Assembly: GCA_903828805.1 (NCBI GenBank)
Contig: CAIKNO010000134.1
Span: 1 to 53,237, forward strand
Reading direction: 5' to 3'
DNA: 53,237 nt
DNA from: an uncultured Sandaracinus sp.
GTDB taxonomy: Bacteria > Myxococcota_A > Polyangia > Polyangiales > Sandaracinaceae
Below the pieces are notes generated by a model. The model saw only the letters and a program-made list of their open reading frames with translations. It was not told the DNA's origin and made no database searches. Every line of letters begins with the position of its first letter. The first letter of the stretch is position 1. A program made the position numbers and the translations under genes. Below are positions 27,859 through 41,875 of this stretch, piece by piece.

Positions 27859-29019
27859 ATGGACCTGCAACCGCGCGAAGTCACTTCTTCCCCCTTGCGC
27901 GTCCTCGTGCTCGACGGCGGTCGGCCCAGGGCGCAGCACGCCCCCCGACGTCCCGATTCTCGGCCCCGTCCGCTCGCGACGACCTCGGTGGCCGATGTCC
28001 CGTCCCTGCTGCGCACGATGCAGGACGGTGCGCCCGACGTCTGCGTGATCGACCTGTCGCCCGATCCCGAAGCCCGGCTCGAGGCACTGCGCGACGTGCG
28101 GGCCAGCGGATGGCACGGGCCGCTCGTGGCGCTCTCCGACGGTCGAGAACCGGACCTCGAGGACCGCGCGCGCGACGCGGGCGCAGACGACGTCGTGGTC
28201 GCCGGGGACGACGGGGCGCGCGGGTGGAGCGACGCCATCCACGACACGCTCGCGCACCGGCAGAGGCTCGAGCCGTGGGTGCAGAAGACGAACACCCTCG
28301 AGGCGGAGCGCGCCCGACTCGAGACGATGGTGGCGCGCCAGAACGAATTCCTCGCCGTCGTCGCCCACGACCTCCGTGGCCCCGTCGGCATCGTGCTCGG
28401 GTGCACGCGCCTGCTCGAGACCGGGCTCGACACCGCGTCCCGCGACGAACAGAGGCGGCTCCTCGCGCACACCCGCCACGCGGTGCAGCGGATGGCCGCG
28501 CTGATCGACGACCTGCTCGACCTGGCGGCCATCGCCTCCGGGCACGTGACGCTGCACACGACCGAGGAGGATCTCGTCCACGTGGTCGCCCCCGTCGTGG
28601 AGGCGCACGGGTTGCTCGCGGCGCCGAAGGGCATCCGACTCGCGTGCGAGGTCGACGGCCACGTGCGCCCGGTCCGCATCGACGCAGGTCGGATCGAGCA
28701 GGCCATCCAGAACTTGATCACCAACGCCATCAAGTACTCGCACCCGGGGAGCGAGGTGCGGGTCCGCCTCGCGCAGCGGGGACCGTGCGCCCGTCTGTCG
28801 GTCGAGGACGACGGAGTGGGGATGAACCTTGCTGAAGACCGTCCCTCGTTCGTCCCGTTCCAGCGCGGTTCCACCGCCGGCACCGGCGGAGAGAAGAGCA
28901 CGGGCCTCGGTCTCGCCATCGTGCAACGCATCGTCGAGGCCCACGGCGGAGGCCTGTTCGTCGAGAGCGCGCCAGGTCGCGGGACCTGCGCGGGGTTCGA
29001 GCTCCCGTGCGTCAATTGA
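27859..29019 (+). CDS. Histidine kinase with degenerate receiver-like N-terminus
   Basis: 386 residues. Residues 12-130 resemble a receiver fold (LRVLVLDG, VCVIDLSP with Asp65, PLVALSDG, AGADDVVVAGDD), but the acidic pair is reduced to Asp19 and the conserved switch lysine is absent (VVVAGD instead of the usual LxKP). A coiled coil at 135-160 leads to HisKA with AVVAHDLRGPVG (His170), then the ATPase domain LITNAIKYS, EDDGVGM and TGLGLAIVQRI. There is no transmembrane helix. It faces the hybrid kinase across 200 bp, which suggests shared control or a phosphorelay, though no separate response regulator is adjacent. Confidence 0.92.
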   Translation: MDLQPREVTSSPLRVLVLDGGRPRAQHAPRRPDSRPRPLATTSVADVPSLLRTMQDGAPDVCVIDLSPDPEARLEALRDVRASGWHGPLVALSDGREPDLEDRARDAGADDVVVAGDDGARGWSDAIHDTLAHRQRLEPWVQKTNTLEAERARLETMVARQNEFLAVVAHDLRGPVGIVLGCTRLLETGLDTASRDEQRRLLAHTRHAVQRMAALIDDLLDLAAIASGHVTLHTTEEDLVHVVAPVVEAHGLLAAPKGIRLACEVDGHVRPVRIDAGRIEQAIQNLITNAIKYSHPGSEVRVRLAQRGPCARLSVEDDGVGMNLAEDRPSFVPFQRGSTAGTGGEKSTGLGLAIVQRIVEAHGGGLFVESAPGRGTCAGFELPCVN

Positions 29020-29049: not shown

Positions 29050-29134
29050 TGCCGGGGGCGGGACTCGAACCCGCATGCCGCTCACGCGGCGTGGGATTTT
29101 AAATCCCCTGCGTCTGCCATTCCGCCACCCCAGC
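29050..29134 (-). tRNA. tRNA-Leu (anticodon TAA)
   Basis: 85-nt class II tRNA with a long variable arm. The acceptor stem GCTGGGG pairs with CCCCGGC (one G-T pair) and the discriminator is A (29050). The anticodon loop TTTAAAA places TAA at 29101-29099, reading UUA. The T arm GGTTCGAGTCC is canonical. CCA is not encoded. The outermost anticodon-stem pair is a G-A mismatch. Confidence 0.93.
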
Positions 29135-29487: not shown

Positions 29488-32400
29488 ATGTCCATGTCCC
29501 GACGTCTTCTTGGTGCGCTCCCAGCGCTGTTCGCCGTGTTCCTCCCGACCGCGTGCGGCGACGTCACGAACGATCCCGACGCGGGGCCGGCCGCGGACGC
29601 AGGACCGGCCACCGACGCGGGGCCGGCCGCGGACGCTGGGCCCGATTCGGACGCCGGACCTGGCACCGATGGAGGGACGGGCTCGGTCGTCACGACCTGC
29701 CCCGGCGCGTCGCGGCCGCCGCTCGCCGGCAGCGCCGTGTGCGAAGCGACCCCAGGCGACGCCGCCCTGCTCATCACCGCGGACATCCTCACCCCGGAAG
29801 GGGTGCTCGCGGGTGGCCAGGTGCTGGTGGACGCGACCGGAACGATCGCGTGCGTGGGGTGCGACTGTGCGTCCGCGGCGGGCGCCGCGGCGGCCACCCG
29901 GCTCGACTGTCCCGACGGAGTCGTGTCCCCGGGCCTGATCAACGCCCACGAACACATGACCTTCCAGGGGCGCCCCTACACCCGCACCGACGAGCGGTAC
30001 GAGCACCGACACGACTGGCGGCGCGGTCTGCACGGGCATACCCGCATCGGGTCGCGGATGGGCACGCGGGAAGAGATGGTGTGGGCCGAGATCCGCATGG
30101 TCATGAGCGGGGCCACCTCGATCAACGGTTCCGGTGGTCCGGACGGCTTCCTGCGGAACCTGGATCGATCGAACAACGGCGCCCTCATGCAGCCGTCGGT
30201 CGAATACGACACATTCCCGCTCGACGACTCGAACGGGACCCAGGCCACCTCGGGCTGCAGCTACGGGATGACCCCGACGACGGCCTCGCAGATCGCGCGC
30301 AACGATTCCTATACGCCGCACATCGCCGAAGGCATCGACGGTTCCGCGCAGAACGAGTTCGCCTGCACGAGCTCGACCGACGGTGGTGGCAACGACGTGA
30401 TCGGCGCGCAGACCGCCGTCATCCACGCGGTCGCGCTCGCACCCGCCGACATCGCGGCGATGGCGGCCGACAACGCGATGCTCATCTGGTCACCGCGTTC
30501 GAACGTCACCCTCTACGGGGACACGGCGCGGGTGACGGAGTACGACCGCCTGGGCGTGCCGATCGCGCTCGGAACGGACTGGGTCTTCACGGGCTCGATG
30601 AACATGGTGCGCGAGCTGCAGTGCGCCGACGCGCTGAACGCCGACTACATGGGCGGACACTTCAGCGACGAAGATCTCTGGCGGATGGCGACGCTGAACG
30701 GCGCCATCGCGACGGCCACCGACGACGCCGTCGGAGCCATCACGGTCGGCCGTATCGCCGACCTGGCCGTGTACGACGGGCGCGTGCATCCGCTGCACCG
30801 CGCGGTCATCGATGCCGAACCCGCGGACGTGGCCCTCGTGCTGAGGAGCGGCGTGCCGCTCTTCGGCGAGGCGAGCACCGTCCCGGCGCTCCGCGATGGC
30901 GCCGCGTGCGACACCCTCGACGTCTGCGGGGCCTCGCGGCGGGTCTGCGTGTCGCGCGAGACGGGCATGACCCTCGCGGCCCTGCAGAGCGCCATCACGG
31001 ACCCCTACCCGCTCTTCTTCTGTGGCGAGCCCGAGGGGGAGCCCTCGTGCGTGCCGGCGCGCGTGGCATCGACGGCCTCTGTGATGGGCTCCACCGTGTA
31101 CTCGGGGATCAGGAGCGCCGGGGATTCGGACGGGGACGGGCTCCCCAACGCAGAGGATCTCTGCCCGTCGGTGTTCAGCCCGATTCGCCCCATGGATCAG
31201 GGTGCCCAGCCCGACGCGGACGCCGACGGCATCGGGGACGCATGCGATGCGTGTCCCCTCGAGGCGGGCACCGCGACCTGCGCCCCGGCGGACCCGGGTG
31301 ACCGGGATCGCGACATGGTCCCCGACGCGTCGGACAACTGCCCGACGACTCCGAACATGGGCCAGGAGGACGCCGATGGCGACGGCAAGGGCGACGCTTG
31401 CGATCCTTGCCCCGCGGATCCCAACCCGGGCGCGGCCGCGTGCCCGGCCTCGATCTACGACGTGAAGACCGGCCGCGTCGCGGTCGGCTCCGTCACCCGC
31501 GTCGTCGGCGTGGTGACCGCCACGGGCGCCAACGGTCTGTTCCTCCAGGTCACGGCGGACGACCCCGACTTCGCCGGCGAGGACAACTCCGGCGTCTTCG
31601 TCTACACCCGCACGGCTCCGACCCAAGCCCGAGGCGATCGAGTCGCCGCGGAAGGGATGGTCTCGACCTTCCAGGGGCAGATCCAGATCACCGCGTCGAT
31701 GCTGGCGCCCCTCGGGACGACGGCCGTCCCTGCCCCGGTGGTCGCCACCCCCGCCACCGTCGCCACCGGCGGTGCGCGCGCGTCCGCGCTGGACGGCGTG
31801 CTCGTGCGCGTCGAGTCCGTGACCGTCGCGACGACAGGCGCCTCCTTCGGCGTCGAGGGCGGGCTGACCATCGGGAACTTCCTGTTCACGCTCGCGCCCG
31901 CAGCCGGGGTCGGCGAGGCCTTCACGTCGATCACCGGCGTGCTCGGGACCCGCACCGGCTGGGGCGGGTCGAACCTGATGGCGCGTGACGCGGCGGATTT
32001 CGTCGCGGGAAGCGTGCGCCTCGCCGCCCTCGGGCCGTCGATCTCCTTCGCACGGGTGGGCCGCTCGAGCGCGCCCACGTTCCCGGCACCGCTCACCGTC
32101 CAGCTGTCCCGCGCCGCGTCGACCGACACCCTCGTGACGGTGCGGAGCAGCGGTCCGGAGGCCACGGTGTCGAACGTCACCGTGCCCGCGGGGGCCGCCT
32201 CCGCGGTGGTCCCGGTGACGGCCATGACGGCCTCGGGCATGCCCGTCACGATCACCGCGACGCTGGGCGCCGACGTCCGGACCGCGGAGGTCCGCACCCT
32301 CGGTGCGACCGAGGCCCCCCGGGCGTTCACCCTCTCGCCCGGCACCGCGCGCGTGTTCACGTCCGCGGCGGCCACCTTCACGCTGGCGCTCGACGTCCCC

Positions 32401-33141
32401 GCGCCCGCGGGCGGGGTGTCGTTCGGGCTGGCCGACACCACCGGCAGCCGCGTCCCCGCGACCGTCAGCATTCCCGAGGACGCGCTGGAGGTCCGCTTCG
32501 ACCTCATCGGCGGGCCGATGCCCGCGACGGGCACGCTCACCGCGTCCGCGTCGTTCGGCACACCTCAGAGCGCCGCGATCACCGTCGCGTCGGGGCTCCC
32601 CGGTCGCGTCGTCATCAACGAGGTCGACTATGACCAGCCCGGTGCAGGCGACAGCGCCGAGTTCATCGAGCTGATGAACCCAGGCGTCGACAGCGTGGAC
32701 CTCACGGGCATGGTGCTCGTGCTGGTGAACGGCAGCGGGGGCGCCGAGTACGGCCGGGTGGCGCTCAGCGGCGCGCTGGCCCCCGGGGGCTATCTCGTGA
32801 TCGGCATCGCGGGTCAGATGCTCACCCTCCCGACCGGCGCCCGCAGGCTCGATTTCCCGGCCACCGTGACGGCCATCCAGAACGGCTCCCCGGACGGCAT
32901 CGCGTTGCTCGACGCCTCGGGGACGTTGCTCGACGCGGTCTGCTACGAGGGCGCGATGACGAGCGCCTCGATCGGCGGGCGCGTGTACTCGCTCGTCGAG
33001 GGCACGGCGACCACCGCGACCGACCTCGGCAGCGGCTCGCTTGTCCGCGCTCCGAACGGCAGCGACACCGACGACGCCAGCGTGGACTGGTCGCTGTCGA
33101 CGACGCCCACGCCGGGCGCCTCGAACGCCGCTGGGATGTGA
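29488..33141 (+). CDS. Giant lipoprotein: amidohydrolase + thrombospondin type 3 repeats + lamin-tail domain
   Basis: 1217 residues. A lipoprotein signal ends LPTACG (Cys23), then a DAGPAADAGP-type linker. Residues about 92-460 are an amidohydrolase with SPGLINAHEHMTF (metal His154, His156), a later VIHAVAL, and ALGTDWVFTGS (Asp364). A Cys-rich part follows, then at about 546-650 Ca-binding thrombospondin type 3 repeats (DSDGDGLPNAEDLCP, DADADGIGDACDACP, DADGDGKGDACDPCP). Next come an OB-like beta domain (about 655-745), immunoglobulin-like segments, and a lamin-tail domain starting VVINEVDYDQPG near 1035. It is cell-surface or outer-membrane; the enzyme substrate is unknown. The stop abuts the stop of the convergent BtuF-like gene (TGATCA). 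Confidence 0.92.
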   Translation: MSMSRRLLGALPALFAVFLPTACGDVTNDPDAGPAADAGPATDAGPAADAGPDSDAGPGTDGGTGSVVTTCPGASRPPLAGSAVCEATPGDAALLITADILTPEGVLAGGQVLVDATGTIACVGCDCASAAGAAAATRLDCPDGVVSPGLINAHEHMTFQGRPYTRTDERYEHRHDWRRGLHGHTRIGSRMGTREEMVWAEIRMVMSGATSINGSGGPDGFLRNLDRSNNGALMQPSVEYDTFPLDDSNGTQATSGCSYGMTPTTASQIARNDSYTPHIAEGIDGSAQNEFACTSSTDGGGNDVIGAQTAVIHAVALAPADIAAMAADNAMLIWSPRSNVTLYGDTARVTEYDRLGVPIALGTDWVFTGSMNMVRELQCADALNADYMGGHFSDEDLWRMATLNGAIATATDDAVGAITVGRIADLAVYDGRVHPLHRAVIDAEPADVALVLRSGVPLFGEASTVPALRDGAACDTLDVCGASRRVCVSRETGMTLAALQSAITDPYPLFFCGEPEGEPSCVPARVASTASVMGSTVYSGIRSAGDSDGDGLPNAEDLCPSVFSPIRPMDQGAQPDADADGIGDACDACPLEAGTATCAPADPGDRDRDMVPDASDNCPTTPNMGQEDADGDGKGDACDPCPADPNPGAAACPASIYDVKTGRVAVGSVTRVVGVVTATGANGLFLQVTADDPDFAGEDNSGVFVYTRTAPTQARGDRVAAEGMVSTFQGQIQITASMLAPLGTTAVPAPVVATPATVATGGARASALDGVLVRVESVTVATTGASFGVEGGLTIGNFLFTLAPAAGVGEAFTSITGVLGTRTGWGGSNLMARDAADFVAGSVRLAALGPSISFARVGRSSAPTFPAPLTVQLSRAASTDTLVTVRSSGPEATVSNVTVPAGAASAVVPVTAMTASGMPVTITATLGADVRTAEVRTLGATEAPRAFTLSPGTARVFTSAAATFTLALDVPAPAGGVSFGLADTTGSRVPATVSIPEDALEVRFDLIGGPMPATGTLTASASFGTPQSAAITVASGLPGRVVINEVDYDQPGAGDSAEFIELMNPGVDSVDLTGMVLVLVNGSGGAEYGRVALSGALAPGGYLVIGIAGQMLTLPTGARRLDFPATVTAIQNGSPDGIALLDASGTLLDAVCYEGAMTSASIGGRVYSLVEGTATTATDLGSGSLVRAPNGSDTDDASVDWSLSTTPTPGASNAAGM

Positions 33142-33996
33142 TCAGCCGGGCGCGAGCGCGCGCGTCAGCCGCTCGATCGCCCCGGCCGTGCGCACCCCGT
33201 ACCAGAACAGGTCCTTGCCGGAGACGAGCACGACACGCCCTGGGAACCCCAGGGCTTCGAGCTCGTCTCGCTCCGCTTCGCCGAACCGAAACGGCTCGTC
33301 GGGCAGCAGGATCTTGTCGGGATTCCGCTGCCTCAACTCCTCGATCGCGAATCGGGGGTAGCGGGTATCCCGGGCCTCGGCCGGGCGCTCCGGGGCCGTG
33401 CCGAGATCGGCCGCGAGGGGGTAGCGCCGGGCGCGCGTCGAGAAGACGTTGTCCGCACCGGCGAGGCGCAGAACGTCGCTGGCGTACGTTCGCCCATCGA
33501 TGCTCATCCACGGGTCCTTCCAGATGGCGACCAGCGCGCTCCCCCGCGGCGCCGTCGACGACTCGGCGCGCGCCACCGCCGCATCGAGGGACGAGAGCCA
33601 CGGCTGGGCAGCGGCCTCGGCGCGCAGCAGCCGGGCCGTCTGCTCGAGGTGAGCGCCCGCGTCACGCACCGTGCGCGGGAACGACACGAAGACCGGCACG
33701 CCGAGACCGATCAGCGCTTCCACGTCGCGACGGCTATTTTCCTCTTGGTTCGCGAAGACCAGCTCCGGTGCGAGCGCCGCCACGGCGGACACGTCGATGT
33801 TCTTCGTGCCACCGACGCAAGGCACCGCCTCGATGCGCCCCGCCGGCTCCTCACACCAGTCCGTCCGCCCCACCAAGCGCTCGAGGCCCACCAGCGCCAC
33901 GATCGTCTCGGTCTCGCTCGGCACGAGCGAGACGACCCGCCGCGGGACACGGGGCACACTCACGATCCGACCGAGGGCATCCTCGACGTCCATCAC
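33142..33996 (-). CDS. BtuF-like cobalamin/metal-chelate binding protein lacking a signal peptide
   Basis: 284 residues of the helical-backbone metal-receptor fold: N-terminal DALGRIVSVPRVPRRVVSLVPSE (given here in part), VGRTDWCEEP, SAVAALAPELVFANQ, then the second lobe with IWKDPWMSIDGRTY, ASDVLRLAGADNVF and FWYGVRTAGA. BtuF/FhuD relatives normally deliver vitamin B12 or siderophores to ABC importers from the periplasm, but this one begins directly with the fold and has no signal sequence or lipobox, so it is probably cytoplasmic. No permease or ATPase gene is adjacent. Start at the ATG at 33996; it lies only 199 bp from a divergent gene. Confidence 0.85.
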   Translation of the reverse strand: MMDVEDALGRIVSVPRVPRRVVSLVPSETETIVALVGLERLVGRTDWCEEPAGRIEAVPCVGGTKNIDVSAVAALAPELVFANQEENSRRDVEALIGLGVPVFVSFPRTVRDAGAHLEQTARLLRAEAAAQPWLSSLDAAVARAESSTAPRGSALVAIWKDPWMSIDGRTYASDVLRLAGADNVFSTRARRYPLAADLGTAPERPAEARDTRYPRFAIEELRQRNPDKILLPDEPFRFGEAERDELEALGFPGRVVLVSGKDLFWYGVRTAGAIERLTRALAPG

Positions 33997-36568: not shown

Positions 36569-36742
36569 GGTGGTCACGGCCTGGTTCTAGCGAAGAACGC
36601 CCACGACGCCCGCGACGGCGTGCGTTGACGCGGCGAGGGCGCGCGGCGGGGCCGCGGGGCCGTCGTGGCGCATCGCGCAGGACTCACGGCACGCGCTCCC
36701 CTTGTGCTAGCGTCTCCGCTCCTCACGCCCCGGACGAGCACG

Positions 36743-39700
36743 ATGGACGCGACGGCCGAAGAGCTCATCGCGCGGCTGCGCCGCAACCCCGACGACCCGA
36801 CGGCCTACGCCGCGCTGAAGTCCCACTACCATCGGGCTGGAGACGTCGCCTCGCTCGCCAATCTCCTCGAAGGATGGGCCGCGCGCAGCCCGGATCCGGG
36901 CGCTGCTGCGCAAGCCTTCCACGAGGCGGCCGAGCTGGCGTGGGGCCGGCTCTCCGACGCGGCTCGGGCAGCGCGCCTCTACGAGGCGGCGCTCGAGCGC
37001 CATTCCTTGCACCCCGAGGCGGGAGAGCGACTCGCCCTGCTGTTCGAGGACCTCGGAGACTTTCCGAGGCTGGCCAACTTGCTCGAGCGGCGCGCGGAAG
37101 CCCTGGCCTACGCGCAGGCCGACCCTCGGGACCTCGCCGCGATTCAGGAGCGGCTCGGGCAGCTGTGGCAGCACTCCTTCGAGCGCGCCGACAAGGCCCT
37201 GGTGCACTACCGCCGGGCCTTCGAGCTCGACCCCACCCGGGTGCCCGCGATCTACGCCGCCCGGGAGATCTACCGGCAAGCCGGCAACGCCAAGGCCGCC
37301 GCCGCGCTCTGCGACCTCGAGAGCAAGGCCGAGCCCGACCCCGGACGCAAGGTCGCGCTGCTTCGCGAGCTCGCGCACGCGCGCGGCACCGAGCTCGGGG
37401 ACTTCGAAGGCGCCGTGGCCGCCCTGAAGCGGGCACTCGGCATCGCGCCGGGAGATGTCGAAGTTCTCGAGGATCTCGCCCGTGTCCACCTCGCGCGCGC
37501 CGCGCAGCAGGGCGACGCGCCCAGCGCGGCGGCCGAGCGAGAACGCGCGGCCGACGTGTTCCACCAGCTCGCTCAGCAACGACGACCGGCCGACGCCGTG
37601 CCGCTGCTCGAGAGCGCCCTCGACGCCATGCCGATCCACGAGCCGGCCCTCGCGTTGCTCGAACGCATCGCGGAGCAGGTCGGCCATTTCGAACTCTTGC
37701 CCGGACGCTGGGTCGCCTACCTCGCGAGCGCGCCGTCGACGCCCGCCTCGCGGACCCGGCGCAAGCGACTGGCGAAGGCCTACCTCGACGCGGGCCAGCG
37801 CGACTATGCGATCACCTGCCTCGAGTGGCTGCTCGAGGAAGGCGACGCCGAAGCGGCCGAACAACTGGTGGAGTTCTATCGGCGCTCCGGACGAGAGAAG
37901 GACATGTTGCGGGCCTTGGAGGTCAGCGTCCGCGGGCTGGACCCGCGCGCGCGCGCGCCGAAGCTGCGCGAATTGATGGAGATGCAGGCCCTTCGAGGGG
38001 ACGAGGCGGCCGCCGTGCAGACCGCACGCAGCCTCCTCGATCTCGAGCCGGCGGACATGGACGCGCTCGGCCGCGTCGAGTCGCACCTGCGACGGCGCGC
38101 CGAGTGGTTGGAGCTGCGAGACTTCCTGCTCGCGGCCGCGAGGGCGCCTGGGCTCACGGTCGAAGCGCGTCGTCAGCGCCAGCGCGAGGCCGCGATCCTG
38201 TCCGAGCGGCGCCTCGCCGACCCGGCGGCGGCCATCGGTGCCTGGAACGGCCTCGTCGCGCTCGATCCCACCGACCGGGAAGCGCTGGACATGCTCGGCC
38301 GACTTCTCGAGGACGCCCAGCGCTGGGACGAACTCGTCCCCGTGTTGGAGAGGGAAGCAGCGAACGCCACGACGACCGAGGAACGAGCCGACGCGTTCGC
38401 CCGACTCGCGAGCGTGCATCGCGAACACCGGGGCGACCTGCCCGAGTCGATCGCGGCGCTCCGTAGCCTGCAATCGCTCGTCCCGGACGACGACCAGGTC
38501 CTCGCCGCGCTCTCGGACGCGTTGCTCGAGGCCCACGCATGGGGCGAAGGGATTCCTCTCCTGCGGCGCAGGATCGAGGACGCCGACGGCACGGCCCGGG
38601 CCGAGTTGTTGCGCGTGCTCGCGCGGACTCTGGAAGGGCCGACAGCGGACGTCGAGGGTGCCTTTGCATCGTGGGCCCGGGTGCTCGAAGACGCGCCAGG
38701 CGACCCCGAGGCCCTCGAGCGGATGGAAGCTATCGACGTTCGCGCCGGCCACGCCGAGCGGCTGCTCGACACGCTGGCGTACCGGGCCGACCTGGAGGTC
38801 GGTGCCACGCGCTCGGCGACACTGCGCCGCATGGGCGAGATCGCCGAGGCGCAGCTGGGGGACGCGGAGCAGGCGTCGGAATTCTTCGCCCGCGCGTTCC
38901 AGTTGACCCCCGGCGACGATCGCGTGCTCGACGCCATGTGCACCGCCCACACCCGCGCGGGCCGTCACCGCGAGCTCGTCATGCTCCTGCGCGAACGGAG
39001 CCTGGCGACCGACGACGTGCGCCTGAGGACGTCGATGTCTCGACGGATCGCGCGCGTGCTTTCCACCCATGTTCGCAACGACGACGCCGCCGCGGAGGCC
39101 TACGGGCAGGTCCTCGAAGCGGGCGAGGACGCCGAGGCGCTGACGTTCCTTCTCACCCACGCCGAGCGGGCCGACGATCTCGACGCGATGGACTCTCTGA
39201 GCGGCAGGCTCGGGGCCATCACCTCCGACCCCCAGACGCGGTGTGCCCTCAACATCGAGCGCGCACGGCGGCTCGCCGATCGCATGGACCGCCCACTCGA
39301 CGCGGTCGCGCTGCTTCGCGCGATCGTCGAGGACGTCGCGCCCCCGAGTCTCGAGGCGCTCGAACTGCTGGCCGCGATCTGTACGCAGATGGGCGACCGA
39401 GCCGGCGTCGCCGACGCGCTCGAACGCTCGCTGATGGCCACGACGAGCGCCCCGCTGCGCGCGCGGCAAGCGCGGGCCCTCGCCGACGTGGTCGAGCACG
39501 AACTGCACGACGCCGGACGCGCGATCCGGGCGCTGCAAGCGTGGTCCGAAGCCGAACCGCATGAGGACGAACCGGTCCGCCGGCTCGTCGCGCTCCTGGA
39601 GCAGGGACAGCACTGGCAGCCCCTCGTCGGAGCGCTGGACCGCCTCTCCGTTCTGGTCGGCGAGGACGAACGCGGGGCCGTGCTGCGCAGGGCCGCCCGC

Positions 39701-41794
39701 GTCTCGGCGGAGCACCTCTCGGACGCCGAGGGCGCGTGGGCCCGCCTCGCAGGACGGGTGGCGGCGGGCGATGCCGACGCCGAGGCGCTCTTGCGCGAGG
39801 TATGCCGGAGGAGCGGACGAGGCCCACAGCTCGCCGACCTCTACGCGTCCATCGCCGAGGCAGCCTCCGATCCCGACGAGAAGAGTCGTCGCTGGATCGA
39901 CGCCGCGAGGGCCCACGAGGACAGCTCCGGGCAGACGGCGGCCGCGCTCGAGGCGCTGCTCAAGGCCTTCTCGCTCGACCTCGACGACCCCGCGCTGCTC
40001 GACGAGGTCGACCGCCTCGCCACCGGCGCGACGGCATGGTCTCGACTCGCGCAAGTCTACGACACGCTGTTCCGCCGCGAGGCCGATCGCGTTCGCAAGG
40101 TCCGCCTGTTGCTGCGTCACGCCACGATCCTCGAGGGCCCCGCGGCAGCCCCGTCGGCGGCGCTCGACCGAGCCCTTCGGGCCTACGCCCTGATGCCCGA
40201 GAGCGACGAGGTGCTCGCGATCGCGGAAGGCCTCGCGTTCCGCGCCGGGCGCGCCTCGGAGCTCCTCGAGGTCTACGATCGGCGCCGCACGGCGGCCGTG
40301 GACGACGCCGGGCGCGTCGACGCGCTGCTTCGCGCCGCCACGCTGTGCGAAGGGACGCTTCGGGACCGCGGACAGGCCCTCGTGCGCTTTGCACAGGCCA
40401 TCGCCCTCTCGGTGCGGAGCGCGGAGCTCACACCCGCCATCGAGCAGTGCGCCCTGGATCTCGATCGTGCCCGCCCGCCGCGCGGCGCCCCCGGCGTCAT
40501 CCAGGGTCTGGTGGACACCTATCTCGCGCTTGCCGCGAGCATGCAGGACGACGCGGCGGGTGCGGCTGCGCTCGCAGTTCGCGCCGCAGGCTTGCTCGAC
40601 CGCGTGCTCCGCGATCCAGCACGCGCGTGGTCCGTGCTCGCCGCGGCCGTTTCGGAGGCACCGGCGTACGCACCGGGACTCGATGCACTCGAGTCCCTGG
40701 CCACGTCGCCTGCGCAAGGCGCCGCCCTCGATCGCCTGCTGGCAAGGTGGATCGACGAGGCGCTCGACGCGCGCACCGCAGCCACGCTGATGCGCCGCCG
40801 GGGCCTCTGGCTCGACCGCTTGGGTCGGGTCTCCGAGGCCGCGGACGTGTACGCGAGGCTCCGGACGCTGACCCCCGCGGCAGCGGACGTGCGCGCGGCC
40901 CTCCGCGAGGCACTCCGGCGCGCCGCGCGACATCAGGAACTGCTCCTCGCCCTCGAGCTCGAGCTCGCCAAGTACCCGGTCGATGCGGGCCACGAACAGG
41001 CGCTTCGCAAGGAGATCGCCCGGACGTGGGAGCGGGGTCTGAAGAATCGCTGGGAAGCGCTCGAGGCGTGGGAGAAGGTGCTCGCCCGAGAGCCCGCCGA
41101 TGTCGAAGCCCGCGCCGCGGTCGACCGGCTTCGGAAGGGTTCGACCTCGACCGACGAGGACACCGGAACGGTCGAACTCGACACGGGCGACGTGAAGCTC
41201 GACGAGTCCCTGCGCGCCACGTCCGACCCCACGAGTCCGCAGGTCGCGGCCCCGTCCGCCTCCGCGGGAGAATCCTCGGGTTCGGGTCGTGGACGGCACG
41301 ACGCGGTCTCGGACGATGCCGAGGCCCTTCTGCTGCGCCAACGACGCGTCCCGAGCGCGCTCTCGAACGACTCGGCCACGGGCGAGCTCGACGTCCAGGA
41401 TCTCGCCCTCGACACCGATGATGCCGACCCCTTCGACGACGAAGGCCTCCGGTCGGGCGACTTCGTGGAGGTCGAGTCCCAGCAGCGCGGCCTCGACACC
41501 GGGGTGATCGAGGTTCGACCGCTCGCCCACGCCGACGAACTCGACGCCGACGAACTCGACGCCGACGAACTCGACGCCGACGAACTCGAAGCCGACGAAC
41601 TCGAAGCCGACGAACCCGCAGCGGTCGGCCTCCAGCAGCACGCGCGCAGGCCCGCGCCGGCCCCGCTCGACGCGGACGAGCTCGACGGGAGCGAACTGCT
41701 CGAGGCCGACGACGCGGACGAGCAGGAACTCGACCCCGAGGCCCTGGAAGACGAGAACGACCCCGCACCGTCCAGCGCACGACCCTCTCCGTGA
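36743..41794 (+). CDS. 1683-residue TPR-type helical repeat protein with acidic repeat tail
   Basis: The ATG at 36743 is used; a GTG frame reaches 36665 but overlaps a TAGCGT promoter-like element (36708-36713). From residue 1 to about 1480 the protein is a near-continuous array of TPR-like helical hairpins (AARLYEAALERHSLHPEAGERL, ALVHYRRAFELDPTRVPAI, SEFFARAFQLTPGDDRVLDAM, each quoted in part). No signal peptide or membrane helix is seen, so it is a cytoplasmic scaffold. The last 200 residues are Asp/Glu/Leu-rich, with TGVIEV and TGELDV motifs and six DADEL pentapeptides. Comparable huge TPR proteins occur in myxobacteria with motility or secretion roles, but nothing here fixes its job. The next gene follows after 81 bp. 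Confidence 0.93.
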   Translation: MDATAEELIARLRRNPDDPTAYAALKSHYHRAGDVASLANLLEGWAARSPDPGAAAQAFHEAAELAWGRLSDAARAARLYEAALERHSLHPEAGERLALLFEDLGDFPRLANLLERRAEALAYAQADPRDLAAIQERLGQLWQHSFERADKALVHYRRAFELDPTRVPAIYAAREIYRQAGNAKAAAALCDLESKAEPDPGRKVALLRELAHARGTELGDFEGAVAALKRALGIAPGDVEVLEDLARVHLARAAQQGDAPSAAAERERAADVFHQLAQQRRPADAVPLLESALDAMPIHEPALALLERIAEQVGHFELLPGRWVAYLASAPSTPASRTRRKRLAKAYLDAGQRDYAITCLEWLLEEGDAEAAEQLVEFYRRSGREKDMLRALEVSVRGLDPRARAPKLRELMEMQALRGDEAAAVQTARSLLDLEPADMDALGRVESHLRRRAEWLELRDFLLAAARAPGLTVEARRQRQREAAILSERRLADPAAAIGAWNGLVALDPTDREALDMLGRLLEDAQRWDELVPVLEREAANATTTEERADAFARLASVHREHRGDLPESIAALRSLQSLVPDDDQVLAALSDALLEAHAWGEGIPLLRRRIEDADGTARAELLRVLARTLEGPTADVEGAFASWARVLEDAPGDPEALERMEAIDVRAGHAERLLDTLAYRADLEVGATRSATLRRMGEIAEAQLGDAEQASEFFARAFQLTPGDDRVLDAMCTAHTRAGRHRELVMLLRERSLATDDVRLRTSMSRRIARVLSTHVRNDDAAAEAYGQVLEAGEDAEALTFLLTHAERADDLDAMDSLSGRLGAITSDPQTRCALNIERARRLADRMDRPLDAVALLRAIVEDVAPPSLEALELLAAICTQMGDRAGVADALERSLMATTSAPLRARQARALADVVEHELHDAGRAIRALQAWSEAEPHEDEPVRRLVALLEQGQHWQPLVGALDRLSVLVGEDERGAVLRRAARVSAEHLSDAEGAWARLAGRVAAGDADAEALLREVCRRSGRGPQLADLYASIAEAASDPDEKSRRWIDAARAHEDSSGQTAAALEALLKAFSLDLDDPALLDEVDRLATGATAWSRLAQVYDTLFRREADRVRKVRLLLRHATILEGPAAAPSAALDRALRAYALMPESDEVLAIAEGLAFRAGRASELLEVYDRRRTAAVDDAGRVDALLRAATLCEGTLRDRGQALVRFAQAIALSVRSAELTPAIEQCALDLDRARPPRGAPGVIQGLVDTYLALAASMQDDAAGAAALAVRAAGLLDRVLRDPARAWSVLAAAVSEAPAYAPGLDALESLATSPAQGAALDRLLARWIDEALDARTAATLMRRRGLWLDRLGRVSEAADVYARLRTLTPAAADVRAALREALRRAARHQELLLALELELAKYPVDAGHEQALRKEIARTWERGLKNRWEALEAWEKVLAREPADVEARAAVDRLRKGSTSTDEDTGTVELDTGDVKLDESLRATSDPTSPQVAAPSASAGESSGSGRGRHDAVSDDAEALLLRQRRVPSALSNDSATGELDVQDLALDTDDADPFDDEGLRSGDFVEVESQQRGLDTGVIEVRPLAHADELDADELDADELDADELEADELEADEPAAVGLQQHARRPAPAPLDADELDGSELLEADDADEQELDPEALEDENDPAPSSARPSP
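41531..41620 (+). repeat. Six copies of a 15-bp tandem repeat in the TPR gene tail
   Basis: The unit GCCGACGAACTCGAC starts at 41531, 41546, 41561, 41576, 41591 and 41606, drifting to GAA and then GCA at the ends. It is in frame and encodes repeated A-D-E-L-D/E. Slippage-prone. Confidence 0.92.
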
Positions 41795-41875
41795 ACCCTC
41801 TGCGGCCCCCTTCTTCGACGACGCGCACGGTTCGTCGATCCCTGCCCCCTTCCGCTGCATTCCACACGAGGCCCG

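Follow-up and report, generated by a model that had tools for sequence, protein, structure and literature searches.

The lipoprotein gene and its surroundings

The gene under study lies on the plus strand of the window (the whole stretch of DNA that was analysed, 53 237 nt). The features assigned to it and to the adjoining DNA are the following:

27859-29019, plus strand: histidine kinase gene, upstream of the lipoprotein gene
29050-29134, minus strand: tRNA-Leu (anticodon TAA), between the histidine kinase gene and the lipoprotein gene
29488-33141, plus strand: lipoprotein gene, ATG start, terminal stop, 1217 aa
29488..29556, plus strand: signal peptide and lipobox, residues 1-23 (FLPTA-C23, +2 Gly, +7 Asp), from the sequence
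29557..29685, plus strand: low-complexity Asp/Ala/Gly/Pro linker, residues 24-66 (43 residues), from the sequence
29686..31107, plus strand: amidohydrolase domain with C-terminal extension, residues 67-540 (Pfam, homologues, model, VIA)
29947..29955, plus strand: HxH metal ligands H154 and H156 (homologue alignments)
30319..30330, plus strand: H278xxE281, metal ligand and catalytic Glu (roles by analogy with ATZ/TRZ deaminases)
30424..30426, plus strand: H313, histidine of strand beta-6 (homologue alignments)
30577..30579, plus strand: D364, aspartate of strand beta-8 (homologue alignments)
31108..31452, plus strand: thrombospondin type 3 (TSP3) repeats, residues 541-655 (Pfam TSP_3, phmmer, motif scan)
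31453..32061, plus strand: OB-like module of the ExeM/NucH type, residues 656-858 (NCBIfam NF033681, homologues, beta-rich model)
32095..32301, plus strand: Ig-like domain 1, about residues 870-938 (model and fold matches)
32326..32589, plus strand: Ig-like domain 2, Big_2-like, about residues 947-1034 (model; 7quz, Z 10.4)
32599..32946, plus strand: lamin tail domain (LTD), residues 1038-1153 (Pfam LTD, homologues, fold match to 1ifr)
33142-33996, minus strand: periplasmic-binding-protein-like gene, convergent with and abutting the lipoprotein gene

The reverse strand of 29488-33141 has no frame that stays open over the whole length, and antisense coding was rejected for it. No sigma-70-like promoter site was found in the promoter scan. 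A gene-neighbourhood comparison of the homologues for an operon partner revealed no protein-coding neighbour conserved beyond close relatives and none that points to a pathway; the gene therefore looks free-standing. Apart from these, the largest groups of neighbouring frames were shadows of the lipoprotein gene itself on the antisense strand. Elsewhere in the window, at 36665-41860, two very long frames overlap on opposite strands (1709 aa on the plus strand, 1717 aa on the minus strand), and the minus-strand frame had no Pfam match.

The N-terminus has the signal peptide and lipobox Cys of a bacterial lipoprotein (MSMSRRLLGALPALFAVFLPTAC), both called by eye and by pattern. Position -3 of the lipobox is Pro, which is off-consensus; most homologues have canonical lipoboxes (LAAC, LAGC). 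Residues 1-66 are weakly conserved (mean 0.24 in the full-length alignment), and in the Myxococcus and Archangium homologues the linker is replaced by Cys-rich DUF4215 repeats. In M. xanthus, inner-membrane lipoproteins mostly have Lys at +2, a FibA variant with Asp at +7 was located in the outer membrane only, and Ala at +7 is a feature of the lipoproteins of the extracellular matrix (ECM) (PMC3222651). The 1217-aa protein has Asp at +7 and lacks both +2 Lys and +7 Ala. By these sorting rules it carries no inner-membrane signal, since +2 Lys is absent, and it would be an outer-membrane-type lipoprotein if the M. xanthus rules are carried to another genus.

Amidohydrolase domain

Pfam Amidohydro_1 (PF01979) matched residues 305-455 (E 4.8e-15; 56.1 bits against a gathering cut-off of 25) and was found in 31/31 homologues. 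Residues 67-545 were modelled with AlphaFold from 31 sequences (pLDDT 92.3, pTM 0.93), and the model has a TIM-barrel fold with a composite beta-sandwich. The top fold matches were the Zn adenosine/MTA-SAH deaminase homologues 4gbd, 4f0s and 4dzh (Z 31-32, rmsd 2.6-2.9, about 360 residues aligned). Alignment with 4gbd using VIA-align gave a Z of 32.2 and an rmsd of 2.6 for 358 aligned residues with 21% identity. Isocytosine deaminase, AtzA, TrzN and other deaminases or chlorohydrolases came next.

The combination of HxH, HxxE, H and D is the catalytic set of the mononuclear ATZ/TRZ deaminases. All six residues of this type (H154, H156, H278, E281, H313 and D364) are present in the 1217-aa protein. 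They are intact in 29/30 rows of the full-length alignment and in 54/61 frames of a wider set, which is partly redundant and includes the query. The remaining seven frames include two fragments without some of the catalytic sites. L030 is a truncated frame in which H313 is also replaced by Gln, and L097 has this replacement alone. At L024:5431-9447 (+), the homologue is split over three frames and has altered catalytic residues in its enzyme part; this is either a broken gene or an assembly error. The last two frames are one Lysobacterales gene, L040:3940-7692 (+), which is the same gene as L099; it retains the architecture with five of the six catalytic residues lost (the six positions read G, A, L, E, M and N where H, H, H, E, H and D are the rule, the Glu being retained). 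Judged from these substitutions, its product is an apparent pseudoenzyme.

The ATZ/TRZ (COG0402) deaminases 4gbd, 4dyk, TM0936, AtzA and TrzN share the fold (Z 28-32) and the catalytic set with the 1217-aa protein at about 18-24% identity. Their solved structures are stand-alone enzymes, whereas the present protein is a lipoprotein with TSP3, OB, Ig and LTD modules and falls below every curated subfamily cut-off. In NCBIfam, the deaminase subfamilies searched (MTA/SAH, guanine, 8-oxoguanine and SsnA) gave at best 68.9 bits against a cut-off of 540. A named deaminase identity was dropped for this reason, and the matches point to a likely class of enzyme rather than to a substrate. The likeliest class, from sequence and model, is a predicted aminohydrolase acting on small heterocyclic molecules.

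C-terminal modules and topology

The motif scan located four DxDxD loops, at residues 546, 576, 605 and 628. The best stretch for Pfam TSP_3 (PF02412) was 576-626 (E 6e-9; 35.9 bits against a cut-off of 25) and the repeats matched COMP (3fby) with an E of 7.3e-20 using phmmer. Like those of thrombospondin and COMP, the repeats are of the DxDxDG type, putatively calcium-binding, with conserved Cys. The 1217-aa protein differs in having about four loops only, and EGF and thrombospondin C-terminal domains were not detected.

For the OB-like domain there was no Pfam model. Residues 672-783 matched NCBIfam NF033681 (ExeM_NucH_DNase) over its first 116 positions (E 4.6e-10), and 25/25 homologues gave the same result. 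This N-terminal OB part was the only part of the model to match, at 39 bits against the 300 required, which places the protein outside the ExeM/NucH family. The ExeM/NucH nucleases resemble it as secreted hydrolases uniting an OB module with a lamin tail domain; they differ in their EEP nuclease catalytic domain and N-terminal LTD, and no TSP3 repeats are reported in them (PMC6085458). The Pfam scan of the 1217-aa protein detected no EEP nuclease domain. By analogy with the OB module of these nucleases, nucleic-acid binding by the tip is indirectly suggested. The LTD of ExeM is reported to be dispensable for degradation of extracellular DNA (PMC6085458).

The fold matches of the two Ig-like domains were bacterial Big_2 and S-layer domains. 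Pfam LTD (PF00932) matched the last domain with 51.9 bits against a cut-off of 34.3 (E 1.1e-13; found in 25/25 homologues), and its model superposed on lamin A/C (1ifr) with a Z of 10.8 and an rmsd of 2.6 over 104 aligned residues. The DUF4876 protein BT_1938 (4q1z) from Bacteroides has a similar C-terminal arrangement of Ig-like and LTD-like domains (Z 12.1, 163 aligned); the match is limited to the Ig2-LTD part, and no relation was seen elsewhere in the chain. The AlphaFold model of residues 540-1217 had a pLDDT of 89.0 but a pTM of 0.54; it can be relied on for the individual domains and not for their relative placement.

The initial annotation had described a lipoprotein combining an amidohydrolase, TSP3 repeats, an OB-like domain, Ig-like segments and a lamin tail. 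The lipoprotein reading holds on the signal peptide, Cys23 and the canonical lipoboxes of most homologues. The amidohydrolase, TSP3 and lamin-tail calls were borne out by Pfam matches above the gathering cut-offs, in exactly the families that the annotation had proposed, together with the DxDxDG-type loops for TSP3 and the lamin A/C fold for the tail. The OB-like call agrees with the N-terminal ExeM_NucH_DNase match in 25/25 homologues, and model and fold comparison concur on the Ig-like segments. The annotation had also placed the enzyme at the end of a calcium-stabilised stalk, and this had to be revised. The order along the chain is lipid-Cys23, linker, enzyme, TSP3, OB, Ig, Ig and LTD. As the enzyme follows directly on the anchor and its flexible linker, it is expected beside the membrane, and the TSP3 rod between enzyme and tip would hold the tip away.

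Distribution in the Myxococcota

This domain order is shared by a further 29 aligned homologues, which are 40-54% identical to the 1217-aa protein over the entire chain and come from Sorangium, Myxococcus, Archangium and numerous metagenome-assembled genomes (MAGs) of Myxococcota. The search for this order in other Myxococcota, proposed with the initial annotation, was thus positive. In the scan of bacterial genomes, many full-length homologues were obtained from the three genera and from MAGs of Kofleriaceae, Polyangiaceae and other Myxococcota, and one from a Lysobacterales MAG. Of the genomes searched in the organism's own family, the Sandaracinaceae, 10/10 have a homologue. A chance fusion or assembly artefact is excluded by these ten genomes and the 29 homologues with the same domain order. 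A query made of the enzyme and TSP3 parts was found in 21/38 sampled genomes of the order, 27/47 of the phylum and 26/26 of Myxococcus. The Myxococcus and Archangium forms are longer than the 1217-aa protein and have DUF4215 repeats, N-terminal in Myxococcus, where the frames reach about 1550-1600 aa and also include additional Ig-like sequence.

Among family members, variation is found in the C-terminal part. Some chains end after the OB module (L089, 882 aa), some have a different LTD-type tip (L091 and L094), and enzyme-only forms are represented by L002 and by frames of 530-630 aa. L002:163-2091 (+) is a lipoprotein-like paralogue in the same genome, 36% identical and without TSP3 or LTD. 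Two other lipoprotein-like proteins of this genome, L003 and L004, end in a close copy of the LTD (49-54% identical); they have Asp/Ala/Gly/Pro-type linkers and are otherwise unrelated to the amidohydrolase lipoprotein. The pattern suggests that LTD tips are exchangeable and that a stable enzyme core is combined with swappable docking modules. A frame of 2392 residues at L045:5719-12894 (+) combines TSP3 and OB parts with a downstream tandem of seven Ig-LTD units, but nothing in it matched the amidohydrolase part.

The literature search found nothing relevant on an LTD joined to an amidohydrolase or to TSP3. Secreted hydrolases with LTDs are already known (PMC6085458), and no paper was found that describes the present architecture. 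In line with the initial annotation, the combination is uncharacterised in the papers found, although the architecture is common and conserved across the Myxococcota. The family is old, widespread in predatory Myxococcota and unstudied.

Probable orthologue in M. xanthus vesicles

MXAN_0886, a 'metal dependent amidohydrolase', is >65-fold enriched in the outer-membrane vesicles of M. xanthus, and MXAN_0889 is an RCC1-repeat protein (PMC4158809). In the related Myxococcus genomes G089 (9.3 Mb) and G104 (9.0 Mb), whose contigs are nearly as long as the genomes, the homologue is single-copy and lies at 1.05 and 1.06 Mb, respectively. From average gene spacing, we estimated that locus 0886 should lie at about 1.08 Mb. 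In G104, an RCC1-repeat gene is found about 2.7 kb downstream of the homologue; in G089, the Pfam scan of the one long downstream frame gave no match. Because of the matching position, the RCC1 gene nearby and the shared annotation, MXAN_0886 was taken as the probable orthologue of the 1217-aa protein, by position and annotation rather than by sequence. MXAN_0075, an 'amidohydrolase' of the ECM (PMC3222651), was set aside as gene position favours MXAN_0886. The amidohydrolase lipoprotein family probably coats myxobacterial surface vesicles.

Proposed function and alternatives

The best explanation, to which we give a probability of about 55%, is a mononuclear-metal aminohydrolase of the surface or of vesicles that acts on small heterocycles and is docked by its C-terminal modules. 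The protein would be exported by the Sec pathway, lipidated at Cys23 and placed on the outer membrane or on outer-membrane vesicles. The flexible linker would keep the ATZ/TRZ-type (COG0402-like) enzyme near the membrane. H154, H156, H278 and D364 would bind the metal, E281 and H313 would shuttle protons, and the activated water would attack a C-N bond in a small molecule from the surroundings, probably a heterocycle. The TSP3 rod, stabilised by putative calcium sites, would project the OB/Ig/Ig/lamin-tail tip, which may attach to nucleic acid, to matrix or to an adjacent surface and so keep the enzyme at the source of its substrate, e.g. lysed prey or biofilm matrix. The analysis itself establishes the gene, its domains and fold, the catalytic residues and the conservation, while the surface or vesicle location, the class of reaction and the docking are inferred.

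Other chemistry is conceivable. Hydrolysis of a non-heterocyclic amide (peptide, acyl-homoserine or antibiotic amide) in defence or competition has a minor share of the probability; prolidase-like and enamidase superfamily members do occur among the weaker matches, but the best fold and profile matches are deaminases and chlorohydrolases of aromatic heterocycles, and HxH, HxxE, H and D together are typical of mononuclear deaminases. It is unlikely that the chain is primarily a matrix or adhesion protein in which the amidohydrolase is minor or structural, a reading that draws on three observations. Conservation peaks in TSP3 (mean 0.58, the enzyme having 0.55), the NCBIfam model of the cell-cell cohesion TSP3 protein MtsC matches the TSP3 part (below its cut-off), and L040/L099 keeps the architecture without five of the six catalytic residues, L024 deviating too. 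However, almost every other homologue has all the catalytic residues, and stand-alone forms of the enzyme exist (L002 and the 530-630 aa forms) while tips vary or vanish.

The location leaves room for another view. Bacterial lipoproteins by default face the periplasm, and we know of no surface-export signal for the host organism. The +7 Ala of M. xanthus ECM lipoproteins is absent as well, and a periplasm-facing enzyme handling nucleobases or a cell-wall related compound would be in line with all three points. With >1100 aa, a TSP3 rod and a tip of OB, Ig and LTD modules, the chain fits the exterior better, and its probable orthologue is known from vesicles, although vesicles may carry periplasmic cargo; we consider the periplasmic location improbable. 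More specific than the surface aminohydrolase favoured here, and quite speculative, is a phylum-wide, vesicle-displayed deaminase of prey-released nucleobases or related heterocycles, docked through OB and lamin-tail modules on extracellular nucleic acid or matrix. Such addressing of a secreted small-molecule enzyme to its substrate source would resemble that of modular glycosidases.

The protein belongs to a conserved, uncharacterised family of putative surface or vesicle enzymes within a major group of predators, the Myxococcota, which is present in every Myxococcus genome searched. With a probable orthologue in M. xanthus, both the role of a vesicle amidohydrolase and the ligands of bacterial lamin tails would be testable in a model organism.
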